DNA of 40,303 nucleotides from positions 1-40,303 of the forward strand of contig JAJXWV010000026.1 in NCBI GenBank assembly GCA_021781455.1, written 5' to 3'. A model generated the notes under the pieces. It was given only the letters and a program-made list of their open reading frames with translations, did not search any database and had not been told where the DNA came from. Below, piece by piece: positions 13,585-20,535 of this stretch. The stretch is from Acidobacteriota bacterium. GTDB lineage: Bacteria > Acidobacteriota > Thermoanaerobaculia > Gp7-AA8. Made by a program: the position numbers and the translations under genes. Numbering within the stretch: position 1 is the stretch's first letter; each line of letters starts with the position of its first letter.

Positions 13585-14182
13585 ACTTCCAGAACCGCAC
13601 CTCGTAAATCTCCCGTCCCTCGGCCCGGTACTTGGCCTCGTAGTTCGTCCGCGGCGGCTCGTCGGCTGTGGGGATGCGCGGCTCGGAGCGGAAGTACTCT
13701 GCGATCACAGGCGCCGCCGCTTCGAAGTACTCGCGGTGATCGGTCACATAGATGCCGGAACCGCCGTCGATGAGGACGCGGCGCATTTCGGCGAGCGCTT
13801 CCGGGCGGATGATCCGCCGCTTCTGCTCGCGTTTGCGCGGCCAAGGATCAGGAAAATAGACGTGCAGCTCGCTGACCGAAGCGGTGGGAAGCATGTCTCG
13901 CATCACCGCAAACGCGTCATGGTTGATGAGCCGCACATTCGTCAGATGGCGCTTGAGCACGCGCTCGCTGATGAGGCGGTGGTAGTGGAGCGACTTCTCG
14001 ATGCCGATGAAGTTCACCTGCGGCCGCTCCATCGCCGAGGTGATCAGGAAACGGCCCTTGCCCGAGCCGATCTCGAGCACCACCGGATGGCCGTTGCCGA
14101 AGACCTCCGTCAAGTCGAGGCGCACGAAGCCTGTCTCGCGAGGGTTGATGACGATGGAAACTTCGCGCGTTTGTGAGTTCAC
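13583..14182 (-). CDS. trmB: tRNA (guanine-N7-)-methyltransferase
   Basis: 199 residues. TrmB methylates G46 of tRNA variable loops using SAM. The SAM motif I 'VVLEIGSGKGRFL' and 'FIGIEKSLHY' are present, as is the family signature 'ELHVYFPDPWPRKREQKRRI' and the C-terminal 'TNYEAKYRAEGREIYEVRF'. The start is GTG 14182; only 2 nt separate it from the perfect terminal repeat of a dispersed element (14185-14518), so any promoter or ribosome binding site must lie inside that element. Confidence 0.95.
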   Translation of the reverse strand: MNSQTREVSIVINPRETGFVRLDLTEVFGNGHPVVLEIGSGKGRFLITSAMERPQVNFIGIEKSLHYHRLISERVLKRHLTNVRLINHDAFAVMRDMLPTASVSELHVYFPDPWPRKREQKRRIIRPEALAEMRRVLIDGGSGIYVTDHREYFEAAAPVIAEYFRSEPRIPTADEPPRTNYEAKYRAEGREIYEVRFWK

Positions 14183-14184
14183 GT

Positions 14185-14518
14185 CTTGTCATTCCGAGCG
14201 TTCGAATCGCGCAGGCGCGATACCGGAGAGAAGAAACGTTCGATCGTTCCCCCTCTCCCCGCCGCAGCGGGGAGAGGGCCGGGGTGAGGGGTCTCGTTCT
14301 GGTTCAAAAGGAGACCCCTTGTACGCCTTCGGCACCTTCTCCCCGCTGCGGCGGGGGGAAGGGCAACGAACGCCAGAACCCTCATAAGCAGTGGGAGTTT
14401 CTTGGAAGCGTGAGCGAGTGATCTGGGCGGTCGGGGGGGCGCCTGACTGAGCGGTTTTCAGAACGTTCTGCCTGCCACCCACACTCCCAGATTTCTCGCT
14501 CACGCTCGGAATGACAAG
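14185..14518. repeat. Dispersed repeat family B, copy 1, with perfect 16-bp terminal inverted repeats
   Basis: The left end CTTGTCATTCCGAGCG (14185-14200) is the exact reverse complement of the right end (14503-14518). Inside are TCTCCCCGCCGCAGCGGGGAGA and a related CCCCGCTGCGGCGGGG, probably from an internal duplication. Most of the element matches the reverse complement of 18925-19160. It has no transposase and fills the whole space between trmB and the next gene. It resembles MITE-like or REP-like non-autonomous elements. Confidence 0.88.
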
Positions 14519-14522
14519 CGTC

Positions 14523-15821
14523 CTAACTCGAGGCCCTGAACAGCACGATCAGGACGCCGATGCCGACGACGATCAGGATGATCGGCAGGATCACGCCCTT
14601 GCCCTGGGTCCGTCCCTTCGCGGCGGTGCTGGTCGTGTCGGTCGTGGCTGCCGACGCGGTCGTTTCCGTCGTCGCCGGCGCCGTGGAGGACGTCGTCTCG
14701 GTGGCTGTGGTCGAAATCGCCGACGCCGCGGAGGTCGTGGCGGCCGCGCTGGCGATTGGAGCGGACGCTGCGCTCGCCGAGGTCGTCTCATCCGGAGCCG
14801 CTGGGGTGGTCGACGAAGTTGTCGATGCCGCCGGCGACGGGCTGCTCGGCGCGTTCGACGAAGTCGGTGCCGGCTTCGCCTTTTCGGCAACAGCCTTCGG
14901 TGCGGGCTTCTCCACCGGCTTCACTGAAGATTTCCGCACAGGCTTCTCGCTCGTCTTCTGTGCCGCCTTCGCGCTCCTTCTTTCGATTTGATGGCTGCTC
15001 TTCCGCGGTGCCGGCGCCTTCTGGTGAGCCTCGGCGATCTTCGTCCCGGCGTGGTGTTCCTGCGCGGTCGTCCGGTGCAGAGGCGGTTTGGGTTTCGCCG
15101 CTGACGTCGTTTCTTTGGCTTCCCTCTTCTCGGCGGCCTGCGGTTCGGCTTTCGGCCGCGTCGTGGCGAGCCGCGGCAGAACGCGCGGCGGGCGGGGCGC
15201 GCGGGTCACCACGGAGACTCCGAGGTTCTTCAGGCGCTGCGCCGTTTCGCGGACGAGAAAATCGCGAGTCTCGGACGTCGGATAGAAACGCGTTCCGCGC
15301 GCGTCGACGAAAGTCTGATCGGCGATGGCGCGATCGAAGCCGGGATAGCCGCGCATGATCTGCGCAGGGACTGTCGTCGAATCGAAGAACGCACCGGTCC
15401 GCGATTCCATCTGGTACGTCCAGATGCGATCGAGGTCGTCATACACTCGGATGACCTGCGTGGCCGCATCCTTCTCCCCTCCCGCCGGGTACGCGGCCAC
15501 GGTGGCCTTCACGCGGGCGAGAGCATCGCGGAATCCGTCGCGATCGCCGCGGTCGGCCGCGTTCTGCACATCCTTGAGCTGCGCCTTCACCGATGCGGTC
15601 GGAGGGGCCGCGTTGGCGTGGCGCTTCGGCGGTTCGGGGATCTCAGCGACCTGGATGCGCGGCACTGCCGGCGGCGCCAGCGATTGATCGCAGTTCGCAG
15701 GGACGGGTGCGGTCGGCGTGGGCAGAACAGTGACGGTCGGGTTCAGCTGCGCGTCCGCAGCGATCGCCGATGCGACGAGCAAGAACGCCGTGAGCAGTAC
15801 GCGTAACACGCGATTCGTCAT
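14523..15821 (-). CDS. Secreted or envelope protein, Ala/Thr/Pro/Lys-rich with C-terminal anchor
   Basis: 432 residues. A Sec signal peptide (MTNRVLRVLLTAFLLVASAIAADAQ) is followed by a structured region of about 200 residues ('DLDRIWTYQMESRTGAFFDS', 'IMRGYPGFDRAIADQTFVD'), then a Lys/Pro/Ala-rich stretch and a Ser/Ala/Thr-rich stretch, and finally a single transmembrane helix (GVILPIILIVVGIGVLIVLF). This looks like an envelope protein whose low-complexity stalk crosses the periplasm. I chose ATG 15821 over an upstream ATG because of the signal peptide. I do not recognise a family. The next gene upstream has a similar secreted, Ala-rich design. Confidence 0.75.
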   Translation of the reverse strand: MTNRVLRVLLTAFLLVASAIAADAQLNPTVTVLPTPTAPVPANCDQSLAPPAVPRIQVAEIPEPPKRHANAAPPTASVKAQLKDVQNAADRGDRDGFRDALARVKATVAAYPAGGEKDAATQVIRVYDDLDRIWTYQMESRTGAFFDSTTVPAQIMRGYPGFDRAIADQTFVDARGTRFYPTSETRDFLVRETAQRLKNLGVSVVTRAPRPPRVLPRLATTRPKAEPQAAEKREAKETTSAAKPKPPLHRTTAQEHHAGTKIAEAHQKAPAPRKSSHQIERRSAKAAQKTSEKPVRKSSVKPVEKPAPKAVAEKAKPAPTSSNAPSSPSPAASTTSSTTPAAPDETTSASAASAPIASAAATTSAASAISTTATETTSSTAPATTETTASAATTDTTSTAAKGRTQGKGVILPIILIVVGIGVLIVLFRASS

Positions 15822-15948
15822 GTCGGTTCGATTCGAGGAGCAGTCTGGACCCAGGCGGCTGCGAAGCATCGTCCTCGCTCCCGCGTAGCTTACTAAACGA
15901 ACAGCTCATTGTGCAGTGCCAACGGCTTCGAGCCGCGGCCTGCCACGC

Positions 15949-17331
15949 TCATGGCAGCATCGTCTGCGAGGGCATCCCCTCGATCATCTCGCGATAGCGC
16001 TCCACATCTGCCGTGGCCTGGATGTAGGGCAACGCACAGGACAGCTCGTGTTTCGCGTCGTCGAAGCGTCCGATCTCGAACAGCGAAACGGCGTAGTAGT
16101 AGCGAAGGTCCTCCTCGCCACGAGCGAAGGTACCGAGGCGTTTGAAGGCGCTCACGGCATCGGAGTAGTCGCCGGTGCGGTAGAGACCGACTGCCGAGGC
16201 GCCGATGACTTCGCGGGGCGAGTCGGCCGCGTGGGCCAGCCGGACATAGGCACGATTGGCCTCGGAGAGGCTTCCGCTCTGGGCGAGCGATTCGGCCTGG
16301 CGGATGCCGGTCAGCATGGTCCGGCGCTCGGCGGCCGCTGCCACTTCAGCCTTTTGGCGAGCCTCCTGCTCGGCCGCGGCGCGCTCGGCGGCGATCTTCG
16401 CGTCGGCGTCGCGCTGGGCAGCAGCACGCGCCTCGGCAATCTTCGCGTCGGCGTCGCGCTGAATGGCGGCGCGATCCGCAGCGATCCTTTCGTCGGCGGC
16501 CTTCTCCGCAGCAGCGCGCTCGGCAGCAACGCGCGCATCGGCCTCCTTCTGAACCGCGGCAATCTTCGCGTCGGCCTCGCGCTCGATCTCCGCGCGAGCC
16601 TCCGCGACACGCTCGTCGACGAGCCGCAGCATTTCCGTGCGATCGGCAGCGGTCAATGCCGGCTGAGGCGGAGCGGGCGCGATCGCCGCTGCAGTGGCGG
16701 GAGCGGTTGCCGTCTCCGGCGGAGCGACGGTCGGAGCGGGCGAAGCAACTGCCGCCTGAGCCGTGGGAGGTGGCGTCGCAACCGCCGGAGTGGCGTTCGC
16801 CGGCGGAGGTGGCGGAGCAACCTGAGCGACAGCTGTTGGAGTGCCCGGCGCTGCGCCTCCACGTGCGAGTTGTGCGTTCGCGGGCAGTGTCAGGGCCGGG
16901 ACGAGCCTCGCGGCGAGCTGCGGAAAATCGGCCGCATCGGAGTCGAGCGGCAGCGCCGCGAATGTCGGCATGATGCGCTCCGCGTTGGCCAGCCTCATCA
17001 CCGTGTCCCGCGCCTCGGCATCCTTGCCGAGCTTCGAGTAGGCAAGCGCCAGGTAGACGAGTGATTGCTCGACCTGCGGCAGCGTATCGAGCTTGCCCGT
17101 GTCGACATACTGCTGCTTCTGTTCCGGACTGAGGAACGCCGCCGCGGCCGTCCGCAGGTCGTCGACGGCTTCTGCGTAGTGGCCGGAGCGATAGTTGTCT
17201 TTTCCGCGCTGGAGCAGCTGATCGGGGGTCGGCACAGCAGGCTGCGCTGCCGCCGGGGTGGCGGGCGTCTGGGCGAGGAGAGATCCGATGAGAAGGAATG
17301 ACAAACAGGCGACCGTGGCGATGCTCCTCAC
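15949..17331 (-). CDS. Secreted TPR protein with alanine-rich coiled coil
   Basis: 460 residues. The start is GTG 17331, with a strong GGAGGGGGG 7 nt upstream; it gives a clean signal peptide (MRSIATVACLSFLLIGSLLAQ). A TPR-like block (QLLQRGKDNYRSGHYAEAV) is followed by a Pro/Ala/Thr linker, then a 120-residue charged coiled coil built from repeats of the type 'ADAKIAAERAAAE' at 11-13 residue spacing. Further TPR-like repeats end the protein (VGLYRTGDYSDAVSAFKRLG). The role is unknown; periplasmic scaffold is a reasonable inference. Confidence 0.8.
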   Translation of the reverse strand: MRSIATVACLSFLLIGSLLAQTPATPAAAQPAVPTPDQLLQRGKDNYRSGHYAEAVDDLRTAAAAFLSPEQKQQYVDTGKLDTLPQVEQSLVYLALAYSKLGKDAEARDTVMRLANAERIMPTFAALPLDSDAADFPQLAARLVPALTLPANAQLARGGAAPGTPTAVAQVAPPPPPANATPAVATPPPTAQAAVASPAPTVAPPETATAPATAAAIAPAPPQPALTAADRTEMLRLVDERVAEARAEIEREADAKIAAVQKEADARVAAERAAAEKAADERIAADRAAIQRDADAKIAEARAAAQRDADAKIAAERAAAEQEARQKAEVAAAAERRTMLTGIRQAESLAQSGSLSEANRAYVRLAHAADSPREVIGASAVGLYRTGDYSDAVSAFKRLGTFARGEEDLRYYYAVSLFEIGRFDDAKHELSCALPYIQATADVERYREMIEGMPSQTMLP

Positions 17332-17472
17332 TGATGACCCCCCTCCGGCGGCTCGAAGCAGCCGGCGCATCGGCAGATCGACAGTCCGCTGCGCCGCCAG
17401 CGCGATTTCAATTGCGAGCGCTATTCTCTCCCAAGCGGAGGTGATTTCGCATTGAGTGCTGCAGGAGGGACG

Positions 17473-17865
17473 TTACGCGCAGCCGCTGATGATTCCGCGG
17501 GCGCCGCTCGCGAAGCACTGCCGGATGGCCCGCAACAGCCGCGTCGGAATCAGCGGCTTGCCCAACGCGTCGCAGACCTCGGGAAAGAGCTTCCGGATCT
17601 CGCGAACGTTCAGCCCCGTGACGACGATGATCGTCGACAGCACCTGAGGATTCGTGCACAGCAGTTGCTCCATGATGTCGGTCCCGCTGATCTTCGGAAG
17701 CACGAGGTCCAGCAGCACGACATCGTAGTGCTCGGATGAGAGCAGGCCCATACCGAGCTGCCCGTCGGCGGCCGCGTCTACGGTACAGCCCTCGTTCTCG
17801 AGAACAGCGACGAGCGCCTCACGGGTGATGGCATCGTCCTCAACGACCAGAGCTTTTCTGTGCAT
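17473..17865 (-). CDS. Single-domain response regulator
   Basis: 130 residues, receiver domain only. Acidic pair Asp10/Asp11 (VVEDDA), phospho-acceptor Asp53 (VVLLDLVLP), Thr in 'IIVVTG' and Lys in 'ALGKPL' are all present. There is no output domain, so it probably signals by protein-protein contact (CheY/Spo0F-like). No histidine kinase is adjacent. The 3' end of the upstream hydrolase gene lies 66 nt away. Confidence 0.9.
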   Translation of the reverse strand: MHRKALVVEDDAITREALVAVLENEGCTVDAAADGQLGMGLLSSEHYDVVLLDLVLPKISGTDIMEQLLCTNPQVLSTIIVVTGLNVREIRKLFPEVCDALGKPLIPTRLLRAIRQCFASGARGIISGCA

Positions 17866-17931
17866 TGCCGTAAGTATGTATTACAGCAAATCTGTCGCCA
17901 CGGCAAGAAAAAGCCGAGGCCGCAGGCGGGA

Positions 17932-18582
17932 TCAGCGGCGAGCGAAAGGTGCCGTAGCGGCGCGCGAGGTGACGGAAAGGACGAACTCGGAGGCGAGCTC
18001 GACCGCGTGCTTCAAGTTCTCCTGCTCGGTCGTCCCGGAGCGCACGCGCGGCTTGAACGAGTGATCGCCGTCCGAAAGCCATTCCACCGTGATCGATTGC
18101 GACAGGCGGTAACGCGGCACTTCCGACTCATTGCCGAGGGGATCCCGTGTGCCTTGAATGACAAGCGCGGGGGTGGCGAGAGATTCCAGGTGCCGGGTCC
18201 GCAGCTTCTGGGGCTGACCCGGCGGATGAAACGGGTAGCCGAAGCAGAGGACGCCGGCGACACCGAGCTCGTCCGCGACCATGCTGGCCATGCGGCCGCC
18301 CAGCGACTTCCCGCCGATCACGAGCTGGGAAGCGGGGGCGTACTTTGCGACCATCTCGCGCCAGGCGTCGAGAAGCACCGGTTCGCGGTCGGGCGCGCCG
18401 GTCTTCTTTCCCGCTCGCCTGGCGGCCATGTACGGAAATTCGAATCGGATCACCCGCACCCCGCGATCCGCGATTCCGCGCGCAATCGCGGTCATGAAGA
18501 GTGTGTCCATCGCCCCTCCGGCACCATGCGCGAAGAGGAACGTGGGGGCGGAAACGGCGGCGCCGTCGACGAGGACTTCCAT
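17932..18582 (-). CDS. Alpha/beta hydrolase (dienelactone-hydrolase-like / KANL3-Tex30-like)
   Basis: 216 residues. The fold is shown by 'FLFAHGAGGAMDT' (oxyanion loop), the nucleophile elbow 'IGGKSLGGRMAS' (Ser in GKSLG), Asp in 'IQGTRDPLG' and His in 'LSDGDHSFKPR'. This set is typical of the compact hydrolases related to human KANL3/TEX30. Substrate unknown. ATG 18582 starts 25 nt from a divergent gene, so both probably use one short promoter region. Confidence 0.85.
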   Translation of the reverse strand: MEVLVDGAAVSAPTFLFAHGAGGAMDTLFMTAIARGIADRGVRVIRFEFPYMAARRAGKKTGAPDREPVLLDAWREMVAKYAPASQLVIGGKSLGGRMASMVADELGVAGVLCFGYPFHPPGQPQKLRTRHLESLATPALVIQGTRDPLGNESEVPRYRLSQSITVEWLSDGDHSFKPRVRSGTTEQENLKHAVELASEFVLSVTSRAATAPFARR

Positions 18583-18607
18583 TCATGCGGAGCATACAAT
18601 CGAATCC

Positions 18608-18919
18608 ATGAAGTACAGAGTGATCGCTGCCGCTGTGTTCACCGCCGCTTCTCTGCTTGCTGCTGCGCCAAAACCGGTTGCGCCCGAGTCGATTCCGCAT
18701 TCAGACGCGATGTTTCTCTCCTCCCTCTCGAACAGTGGGGCGCGCCGCGTGACCTTCAAGGCCACCGCCCTCGGAACCTACTTCTTCCTCGAGGAATCGG
18801 CCGGAGTCACGGTTTACGTCTACGACGGCGTGGGCTACCGCCGCGAGAAGTTCCTGAAAGGCGCGACCCTGGAGAAGGCGGTCAGGGCGTACACGAAGAA
18901 GACGGCCGGGAAGCGGTAG
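18608..18919 (+). CDS. Small secreted protein
   Basis: 103 residues with an N-terminal signal peptide (MKYRVIAAAVFTAASLLAAA). The mature part is short and beta-rich in prediction (RRVTFKATALGTYFFLEES, VTVYVYDGVGYRREKFL) and ends in a basic helix. No family recognised. The start is supported by the signal peptide; it is divergent from the hydrolase. A family-B repeat begins 5 nt after its stop codon. Confidence 0.7.
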   Translation: MKYRVIAAAVFTAASLLAAAPKPVAPESIPHSDAMFLSSLSNSGARRVTFKATALGTYFFLEESAGVTVYVYDGVGYRREKFLKGATLEKAVRAYTKKTAGKR

Positions 18920-18924
18920 CGCAC

Positions 18925-19160
18925 TGTCATCCCGAGCCGCGCAGACGGCGAGGAATCCCCCGCTAACTCCGGGCGGTCGCAGTTGCGCGCTGAATCGGGG
19001 GATTTCTCGCCGCGCTCCGCCGGCTGCCAAGAAACTCCCAGTATTTGTGCGGCTTTGGCGTTCGTGGCCCTTTTCCTCGCCGCAGCGGGGAGAGGGGGAA
19101 CGATCGAACGTTTCTTTCTCTCCGGTCTCGCGCCTCCGCGATTCGACTGCTCGGATGACA
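18925..19160. repeat. Dispersed repeat family B, copy 2 (inverted relative to copy 1)
   Basis: The ends TGTCATCCCGAGC (18925-18937) and GCTCGGATGACA (19149-19160) are inverted repeats with one gap. Its reverse complement follows 14185-14518: the CGAATCGCG phrase, AAACGTTCGATCGTTCCCC, the CCCCGC/GCGG hairpin, the CGAACGCCA phrase and GGGAGTTTCTTGG occur in the same order. Copy 1 has about 90 bp more in the middle. Confidence 0.87.
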
Positions 19161-19227: not shown

Positions 19228-20535
19228 ATGAACAGCATCCCGTCCAGGCCGGCTGGCGGCGTGGTGAACCGATCGACTCTGACCGTCGAGGAGGCCTTCG
19301 AGGCGGAAGATTCGCGCCGGTCCAAGCTGCTGCAAATCGCCGGCGACAAAGCCGACGACGATTCCCTCGCCCAGCTCGTGCTTGCCGCGGATCAGTTCCT
19401 CATTCACCCGCACACGCGCATCGTCGACGAGGCCCGGGCCTATGCCGCAGGCGAGAGCCCGCGCACCATCATCGCGGGTTATCACTGGTTCACCGACTGG
19501 GGGCGGGACACGATGATCAGCCTGGAGGGGCTGACACTCGACACCGGGCGGCATCGGGAAGCGGGGCGCATTCTCCGCACCTTCGCCTCCTACATCAACA
19601 ACGGACTGATCCCCAACATGTTTCCGGAAGGCGAGCAGAACGGCCTGTACCACACGGCCGACGCGACGCTGTGGTTTTTCCACGCGCTCTACCGCTACGT
19701 TCAATCGTCGACCGACAGGGAGACGCTGAAGGTCATCCTGCCGCGGCTCGTCGAGATCGTCGACCACCATCTGGCGGGAACGAACTTCAACATCCGGGTC
19801 GATCCGAAAGACGGTCTGCTGTCGCAGGGCGAGCACGGATACCAGCTCACCTGGATGGACGCTAAGGTCGAGGAGTGGGTGGTCACGCCGCGGCGCGGCA
19901 AGGCCGTCGAGATCAACGCCCTCTGGTACAACGCCCTGCGAATCCTGGAGAGCTTTCTGCGCGATCGCGGCGATGAGAAGAACGCCCGGCGGATGGACGA
20001 GCACGCCCGACAGGCCTACGAGTCCTTCAACCGCTGCTTCTGGTACGAAGAAGGTCAATATCTTTACGATGTCGTCGACAAGGAAGGCGGCGGGAACGAC
20101 ACCTGCCTGCGCCCGAACCAGATCTTCGCCGTCTCGCTCGATTTCCCGATCCTGGAGCAGTCGCGCTGGAATCGAGTCCTGCAGGTCGTCAAGGACGCCT
20201 TGCTGACGCCGTACGGACTGCGATCGCTGTCGCGCGACAATCCCGAGTACAAGGCGGCGTACGACGGCGACCGCCGTGCACGCGATGCCGCTTACCACCA
20301 GGGCACCGTCTGGGCCTGGCTCATCGGACCGTTCATCGACGCGTGGCTGAGAGTGCACCCCGGCGACAACGACTCCGTCTCCGCGTTTCTCGAGCCGTTC
20401 AGGAAGCAGCTGGGAGGGTCCTGTATCGGCACCATCGCCGAGGTCTTCGACGCCGAATGCCGCCATTCCGCGCGCGCGGCTGCGCCGCTCAGGCCTGGAG
20501 CGTCGCCGAAGTGCTGCGCTGCCTGTCAAACCTGA
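19228..20535 (+). pseudogene. Glycogen debranching enzyme (GDE_C, GH133-like), N-terminally truncated and frameshifted
   Basis: The product corresponds to the catalytic C-terminal half of bacterial amylo-alpha-1,6-glucosidases: 'IIAGYHWFTDWGRDTMISLE', 'LIPNMFPEG', 'YHTADATLWFFHAL', 'LTWMDAK', 'YHQGTVWAWLIGPFIDAWLR'. Family members are usually 600-700 residues and carry a GDE_N domain that is absent here; upstream sequence is a family-B repeat ending 67 nt before the ATG. Near 20455-20462 a one-base deletion shifts the frame: the normal ending (RGCAAQAWSVAEVLRCL) continues in another frame to a TGA at 20589-20591. The enzyme is probably non-functional, although a truncated (alpha/alpha)6-barrel could still be expressed. 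Confidence 0.8.

Follow-up and report, generated by a model that had tools for sequence, protein, structure and literature searches.

Two copies of a non-coding repeat with inverted ends are found in a 40,303-nt stretch of DNA from an Acidobacteriota bacterium of the class Thermoanaerobaculia (contig JAJXWV010000026.1, positions 1 to 40,303; G000:C35:1-40303 of a 4.88-Mb draft genome), which is referred to here as the window. This locus raises the question of whether such a repeat moves as one unit, as was proposed in a preliminary description that read it as a single miniature inverted-repeat transposable element (MITE), or is built of several. Each of the two repeats is probably composed of two mobile, transposase-free repeats, one nested in the other: a pair of hairpins resembling repetitive extragenic palindromes (REPs), and a module that splits one of these hairpins at a fixed point, both being moved in trans. 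The work is a sequence analysis of draft genomes that include no strain pairs, and genome-wide counts were taken from pattern searches and fetched stretches.

Copy 1 is 334 bp long, and its ends (14185-14201 and 14502-14518) are perfectly complementary over 17 nt, where 16 had been claimed. These ends are read as the outer arms of two hairpins and not as the ends of one transposon, because the flanks of the module vary among hairpin types. The parts of both copies are as follows.

14185..14518, plus strand: composite repeat copy 1 (hairpin pair and module), filling the spacer between trmB and an open reading frame (ORF) of 448 aa; 17-nt ends, at least 40 genomic relatives.
14188..14199, plus strand: 5' half (GTCATTCCGAGC) of the split hairpin of copy 1, with TGTC tag; the same 12-mer stands directly before the right half in unsplit copies.
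14200..14409, plus strand: inserted module of copy 1, with ends RYTCGAATCGCG...GGGAGTTTCTTGGAAGC.
14251..14278, no strand assigned: palindrome CCCTCTCCCCGCCGCAGCGGGGAGAGGG (REP-B) inside the module; a separate repeat in relatives.
14335..14362: second REP-B palindrome in the module, inverted relative to the first; arms 87% complementary.
14410..14423, plus strand: 3' half (GTGAGCGAGTGATC) of the split hairpin of copy 1.
14490..14515, minus strand: second, intact REP-like hairpin (GTCATTCCGAGCGTGAGCGAGAAATC) of copy 1, head-to-head with the first.
18925..19160, minus strand: composite repeat copy 2, inverted, its module with an internal deletion.
18926..18958, plus strand: intact hairpin of another type (GTCATCCCGAGCCGCGCAGACGGCGAGGAATCC) in copy 2.
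18996..19022, minus strand: 3' half of the split hairpin of copy 2 (CGGCGGAGCGCGGCGAGAAATCCCCCG; locus L082, minus).
19023..19148, minus strand: module of copy 2, 126 bp, without about 84 bp between its two REP-B palindromes.
19149..19159, minus strand: GTCATCCGAGC, the 5' half of copy 2's split hairpin, which lacks one base.

The outer layer is formed by the REP-like hairpins. Oriented copies and unsplit sites give the unit GTCATYCC-GA-GC-GNNA-GC-GA-GGRATC with a TGTC tag before the stem, and folded as DNA it has 5 bp, two G.A mismatches, 2 bp and a four-base loop, with the tail CTGGG. Two units lie head-to-head with their tags outward and span 86-137 bp end to end, and lone 28-nt palindromes are also present (L020, L026, L129 and L139). 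Where the hairpin is unsplit, GTCATYCCGAGC is joined directly to GNNAGCGAGGRAT (42 units in the genome of the window), and the Y/R pair in 33 unsplit units of this genome is C/G in 20, T/A in 13 and mismatched in none. Other hairpin types carry an extended inner stem, which in copy 2 reads GAGCCG-CGCAGA-CGGCGAGG.

The inner layer is a non-coding module of about 210 bp that lies in one orientation between CCGAGC and the remainder of the first hairpin, before the GNNA loop, with (A)GC present at both junctions. Alignment of 33 copies that have both ends, and of 44 3' ends, shows sharp borders and varied flanks, and in most of 44 loci the module stands exactly between the two hairpin halves. The right end, CACTGGGAGTTTCTTGGAAGC, has 43 matches within two mismatches. 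The module has no terminal inverted repeat and no duplication beyond a few nucleotides; palindromes lie near its ends, and it includes the REP-B palindrome (CYCTCCCCGCYGCRGCGGGGAG) twice, in inverted orientation. Hairpins of the GTCAG, GTGAG and GTTAG types are targeted, as are those of the CGGCGGAGCGCGG type (L012, L082; near-variants at L019 and L125), lone 28-nt palindromes (L020, L026, L139) and, at L150, a hairpin without the GTC tag that is split between TTTTATCCCGAGC and GGAGCGAGGGATCC.

Four tests bear on whether the module INDEPENDENTLY is itself mobile: covariation, subtypes, the module tree and the position within the hairpin pair. The pairing base across the module is C/G in 14 loci, T/A in seven and mismatched in three, so that 21/24 covary (Fisher p=7e-4, a value that is optimistic because module copies are not fully independent); copy 1 of the window is one of the three mismatches, and the C/G call for L152 rests on a weak right half. 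The modules of L004 and L007 are 97.8% identical and have a 13-bp duplication in common, yet the hairpin split at L004 is C/G, and the one split at L007 is T/A and belongs to another composite family. Likewise, L014, L022, L030 and L152 have two markers in common and sit in different hairpins. Mapped on the module tree, which is star-like and weakly supported, target type changes 14 times against 14.2 in shuffled data, i.e. there is no clustering by target. Finally, in the family bounded by CCCAATGAGACAAAAATCG the module is found in the left or the right hairpin of the pair, in a lone hairpin, or not at all. Together the four tests fit repeated insertion at one site, and nesting, a fixed site, different target hairpins and repeated insertion are all demonstrated.

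Copy 2 had been described as copy 1 in reverse with 90 bp fewer. The inversion stands; the notion of a simple shortening does not. The copies have blocks of 48 nt (90%) and 40 nt (90%) in common, and copy 2 is an inverted, internally deleted relative of copy 1 whose hairpin part (18926-19022) is of a different type (CCGCGCAGACGGCGAGGAATCC) and one of whose ends lacks a base. Its module (126 against 210 bp) has apparently lost about 84 bp between direct repeats of the GCCGCAGCGGGGAGA palindrome, the repeat spacing being 84.

Both copies adjoin gene boundaries, as the preliminary description had it; the gaps to the gene ends measure 3-7 nt. Copy 1 is bordered by trmB (PF02390; minus strand, GTG start at 14182) and by the stop of the 448-aa minus-strand ORF at 14523, while copy 2 sits after a 103-aa ORF (stop at 18919) and before a GDE_C glucosidase gene at 19228. 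No transposase is encoded in either copy, in agreement with the same source, and an Rfam search of the window gave no match. The predicted RNA fold of copy 1 has a free energy of -192.3 kcal/mol (z -12.6). Within the window alone, the 12-mer with up to two mismatches occurs 13 times where 13.9 are expected, which is no enrichment, and only three exact matches count. A separate feature at 16343-16654 consists of 45-bp tandem-like repeats in a 473-aa ORF (15949-17370), where they encode an Ala/Glu/Arg-rich stretch.

The wider distribution bears out the view of a non-coding repeat that is dispersed and looks mobile, its inverted ends being of a kind widespread between genes; the genome also has more of the paired termini. 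Exact TGTCATYCYGAGC termini number 179 (89 and 90 per strand; 0 for the reversed pattern as control), and at least 40 long copies exist (40 scored of 213 first-look candidates). Across 61 genomes, comprising this one and its relatives, the 13-nt hairpin terminus occurs 0 to 546 times per genome and shows bursts, as in one genus where one species has 230 and another 2. The module is confined to two genomes, both of the same genus as the window, among 18 genomes of the family that were searched; the nearest named record for its right end is a Thermoanaerobaculia bacterium metagenome-assembled genome (JADGOA010000154.1), whose sequence reappears in G001 of this genus. The spacer next to trmB is found without the repeat in relatives: in G001 trmB and its neighbour are about 30-50 bases apart, and the surroundings of trmB in G007, G011 and G016 also lack it. 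In G009, of another genus, the spacer equivalent to that of copy 1 contains a plain pair of hairpins, 86 bp long (L117:1363-1448), which is located about 20 nt upstream of trmB and is probably a separate hit.

The history of REP-B within the module can be considered in the same genomes. A mini-module of about 85 bp without REP-B occurs in G001 (L195, contig C47), and REP-B may, to judge from that shorter version, be a later addition to the module. At L197/L142, GAGCCCGAGCCC repeats stand where REP-B would be. Beyond the class, shallow searches for REP-B gave one 42-nt match in plasmids and none in phages, and in viral contigs its exact pattern had no match.

A mechanism of the following kind can be proposed for the nested reading. 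The head-to-head, TGTC-tagged hairpin pair of about 100-125 bp would spread between genes in the family without target duplication, and the module of about 210 bp would insert immediately behind CCGAGC, ahead of the GNNA loop, leaving (A)GC at both junctions. The junction between GTCATYCCGAGC and GNNAGCGAGG would thus become GTCATYCCGAGC-module-(A)GC-GNNAGCGAGG. Both layers would be non-autonomous and moved in trans. The mover of the module would most likely be an enzyme that recognises hairpin or single-stranded DNA, with a Y1/HUH transposase of the IS200-RAYT kind (RAYT, REP-associated tyrosine transposase) as first candidate and an IS110-type recombinase as second; the best guess is that a Y1-type (or IS110-type) enzyme acts in trans and is directed to its insertion site by the hairpin. 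Insertion splits the hairpin, and through the two long palindromes of the module any transcript that runs between trmB and its upstream neighbour would gain a very stable stem. A more tentative suggestion is that the module homes to the loop base of REP-like hairpins through the hairpin itself (tandem G.A stem, GNNA loop) and not through a long sequence; if so, unlike hairpins with only CCGAGC and the fold in common would all serve as targets. From reading of the sequence, the target CGAG could also base-pair with a CTCG that follows after two bases and belongs to the module (CGAG-CR-CTCG). Elements of the IS200/IS605 family use guide/target pairing, of which this arrangement is reminiscent.

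The search for the enzyme covered the genome of the window, which has 14 Y1 (IS200/RAYT-like) transposase genes. Six were typed, four of them below curated cut-offs: two (L061 and L064) score above the cut-off of the IS200/IS605 model and L062 slightly below it, and the other three (L065, L068 and L072) are sub-threshold matches to the RAYT model. A RAYT as owner of the repeat was rejected, as the 12 Y1 loci fetched are flanked by other palindromes or by none, and a RAYT gene flanked by the same REP, the mark of RAYT-mobilised REPs, is absent from these 12/14 loci. Several Y1 genes (L061-L072) have flanking palindromes of their own, e.g. GTGTAGGACAGGCTTTCCAGCCTGTCCTACAC at L068 and CCCAGGGCTTCAGCCCTGGG at L061. 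An IS110-type owner was likewise set aside, as the ends of the two DEDD transposase genes in the genome do not match, and between distant opposed termini (C19, C40, C35) only ordinary host-like ORFs are found where an autonomous element was sought.

Several of these results weigh against the nested reading. No enzyme is tied to either layer: the 12/14 Y1 loci read are flanked neither by the hairpins nor by module ends, and the two IS110 loci carry neither. The whole element has no base-exact empty site, the G001 spacer being diverged. At L152 and L178, and for most copies in G001, the module lacks a recognisable right hairpin half.

The rival explanations differ in which part of the structure they treat as mobile. 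According to the preliminary description, a single MITE of about 330 bp would move whole, its 16-17-bp termini being recognised in trans by a DDE transposase; the 17-nt perfect inverted ends of copy 1 and the many copies of about 320-350 bp with both ends speak for this. A MITE is expected to have terminal inverted repeats, to be short and non-coding, all of which is found here, and to have target-site duplications, which are not. None was seen in 31 paired elements of the genome with ends set at GTCAT, shifting the ends by 1-6 nt or searching 70-nt flanks gave no excess above shuffled pairs, and none was seen by eye in hairpin pairs of G012. Moreover, the ends occur without the module as pairs of about 105-125 bp and as lone 28-nt palindromes, inner and outer borders are equally sharp, and hairpin type and module subtype assort freely. 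No insertion sequence (IS) with the same ends was found at three distant opposed termini, the 12 Y1 loci or the two IS110 loci, in a draft genome where multi-copy IS are collapsed. A single MITE is quite unlikely, and that part of the preliminary description is not supported. Gene conversion, in which hairpins are cut (e.g. by SbcCD) and repaired from a module-bearing copy through 12-14-nt arm homology, would need no transposase and would account for the fixed site, the orientation and the lack of a recombinase, the (A)GC junction and the arms being common to all hairpins. However, such arms are short for recombination, arm bases should tend to be carried along whereas the arms retain their own T/A or C/G state, and the first insertion in each hairpin type would still need another mechanism; conversion is therefore judged improbable, if less so than other rivals.

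Elements of the IS110 type have no conventional terminal repeats. A derivative of an IS110/IS1111-type element, with its target picked by a bridge RNA and a GC core repeated at both junctions, would fit the (A)GC seen on either side of the module, and several such elements insert into REPs (PMC1525189). Yet only two IS110 transposase genes are present, neither with these ends, and no related non-coding region was identified, which makes this derivation unlikely. It is very unlikely, finally, that the repeat is retained for an RNA function (as terminator, stabiliser or attenuator between genes) and is no selfish passenger: the very stable fold, the distance of 3-7 nt from gene ends and the hairpin pair upstream of trmB in G009 would agree with it, but the spacer lacks the repeat in G001, G007, G011 and G016, copies vary from 0 to 546 between relatives, and internal decay is common.

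The two nested layers resemble several known systems in part. CGTC-tagged REPs, many of which have TGTC instead, are small hairpins with the tag at one end, AT at the stem base and a 4-5-nt loop, mostly head-to-head, whose transposase is not known (Di Nocera et al. 2013, PMC3733652). The TGTC tag, the stem base, the loop, the head-to-head pairing and, across the 12 RAYT-like loci read, the lack of a dedicated transposase are the same here, whereas the stem (5 bp, G.A G.A, 2 bp) and the tail CTGGG differ from the 8-9-bp stem and CCA-like tail of those REPs and fall outside the four families described, and Acidobacteriota are not among the five phyla listed (PMC3733652). Like a bacterial interspersed mosaic element (BIME), the repeat combines several REP types that alternate in orientation in intergenic DNA; the units of a BIME lie side by side, whereas here a second repeat splits one of them at a fixed point. 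SMR-A of Haloquadratum also has strong inverted ends, about 110 bp, no target duplication, no transposase and nested insertion into palindromes, but in that case the element with inverted ends invades, while here the invader lacks terminal repeats and inserts into the hairpin pair (PMC3119063). The module is similar to PATEs and other IS200/IS605 derivatives in being non-coding, without terminal inverted repeats or target duplication and with palindromes near its ends (PMC3119063), although the genome yielded no IS605-type element whose ends match, the 12/14 Y1 loci read giving no match to the module ends. Specific insertion into REP palindromes is also known for IS1397, IS621, ISPpu9 and other IS, which, unlike the module, encode a transposase (PMC1525189). 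A literature search with the literal termini GTCATTCCGAGC and GTCATTCTGAGC returned no relevant paper.

Further layers are found within and around the nested repeat. At seven contig ends (both ends of C79, and C29, C72, C84, C48 and C39) an identical sequence ending CTTGACTTTCAACGGAGTAT is joined to CTCATCCGCC of the module, and at two others (C85, C53) another sequence ending GTTAGCGCGTATGG is joined to GGGTGAGGGG. These are read, with some doubt left by the draft assembly, as collapsed multi-copy IS that are inserted within the module's REP-B part, each at a single fixed position, and that break the assembly, because the first of these IS ends joins two different module variants at the same point. 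With the same reservation, an autonomous parent of the module was rejected on this ground. A larger inverted repeat, CCCAATGAGACAAAAATCG...CGATTTTTGTCTCATTGGG, encloses one family of copies (15 sites, control 0). GTTAGC stands on both sides of L132 (G000:C39:14852-15248), a possible 6-bp target duplication that is not present in L127 (G000:C15:4962-5151). The left flanks of L010, L033 and L055 have GTCAYYCTGAGAGGCTGTGCAGAAATCGAGAACGGCGCGGACGCGCTACTT in common before the hairpin pair, possibly one more enclosing repeat.

How REPs spread without a dedicated transposase is an open question, stated for the CGTC REPs (PMC3733652). About 40 natural split hairpins mark the site at which a strand would be opened, and the covariation that they keep tells which halves belonged together; the cut site and the enzyme are therefore directly testable. 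REPs are seen here as docking sites stacked in several layers, from hairpin pair to module to insertion sequence.

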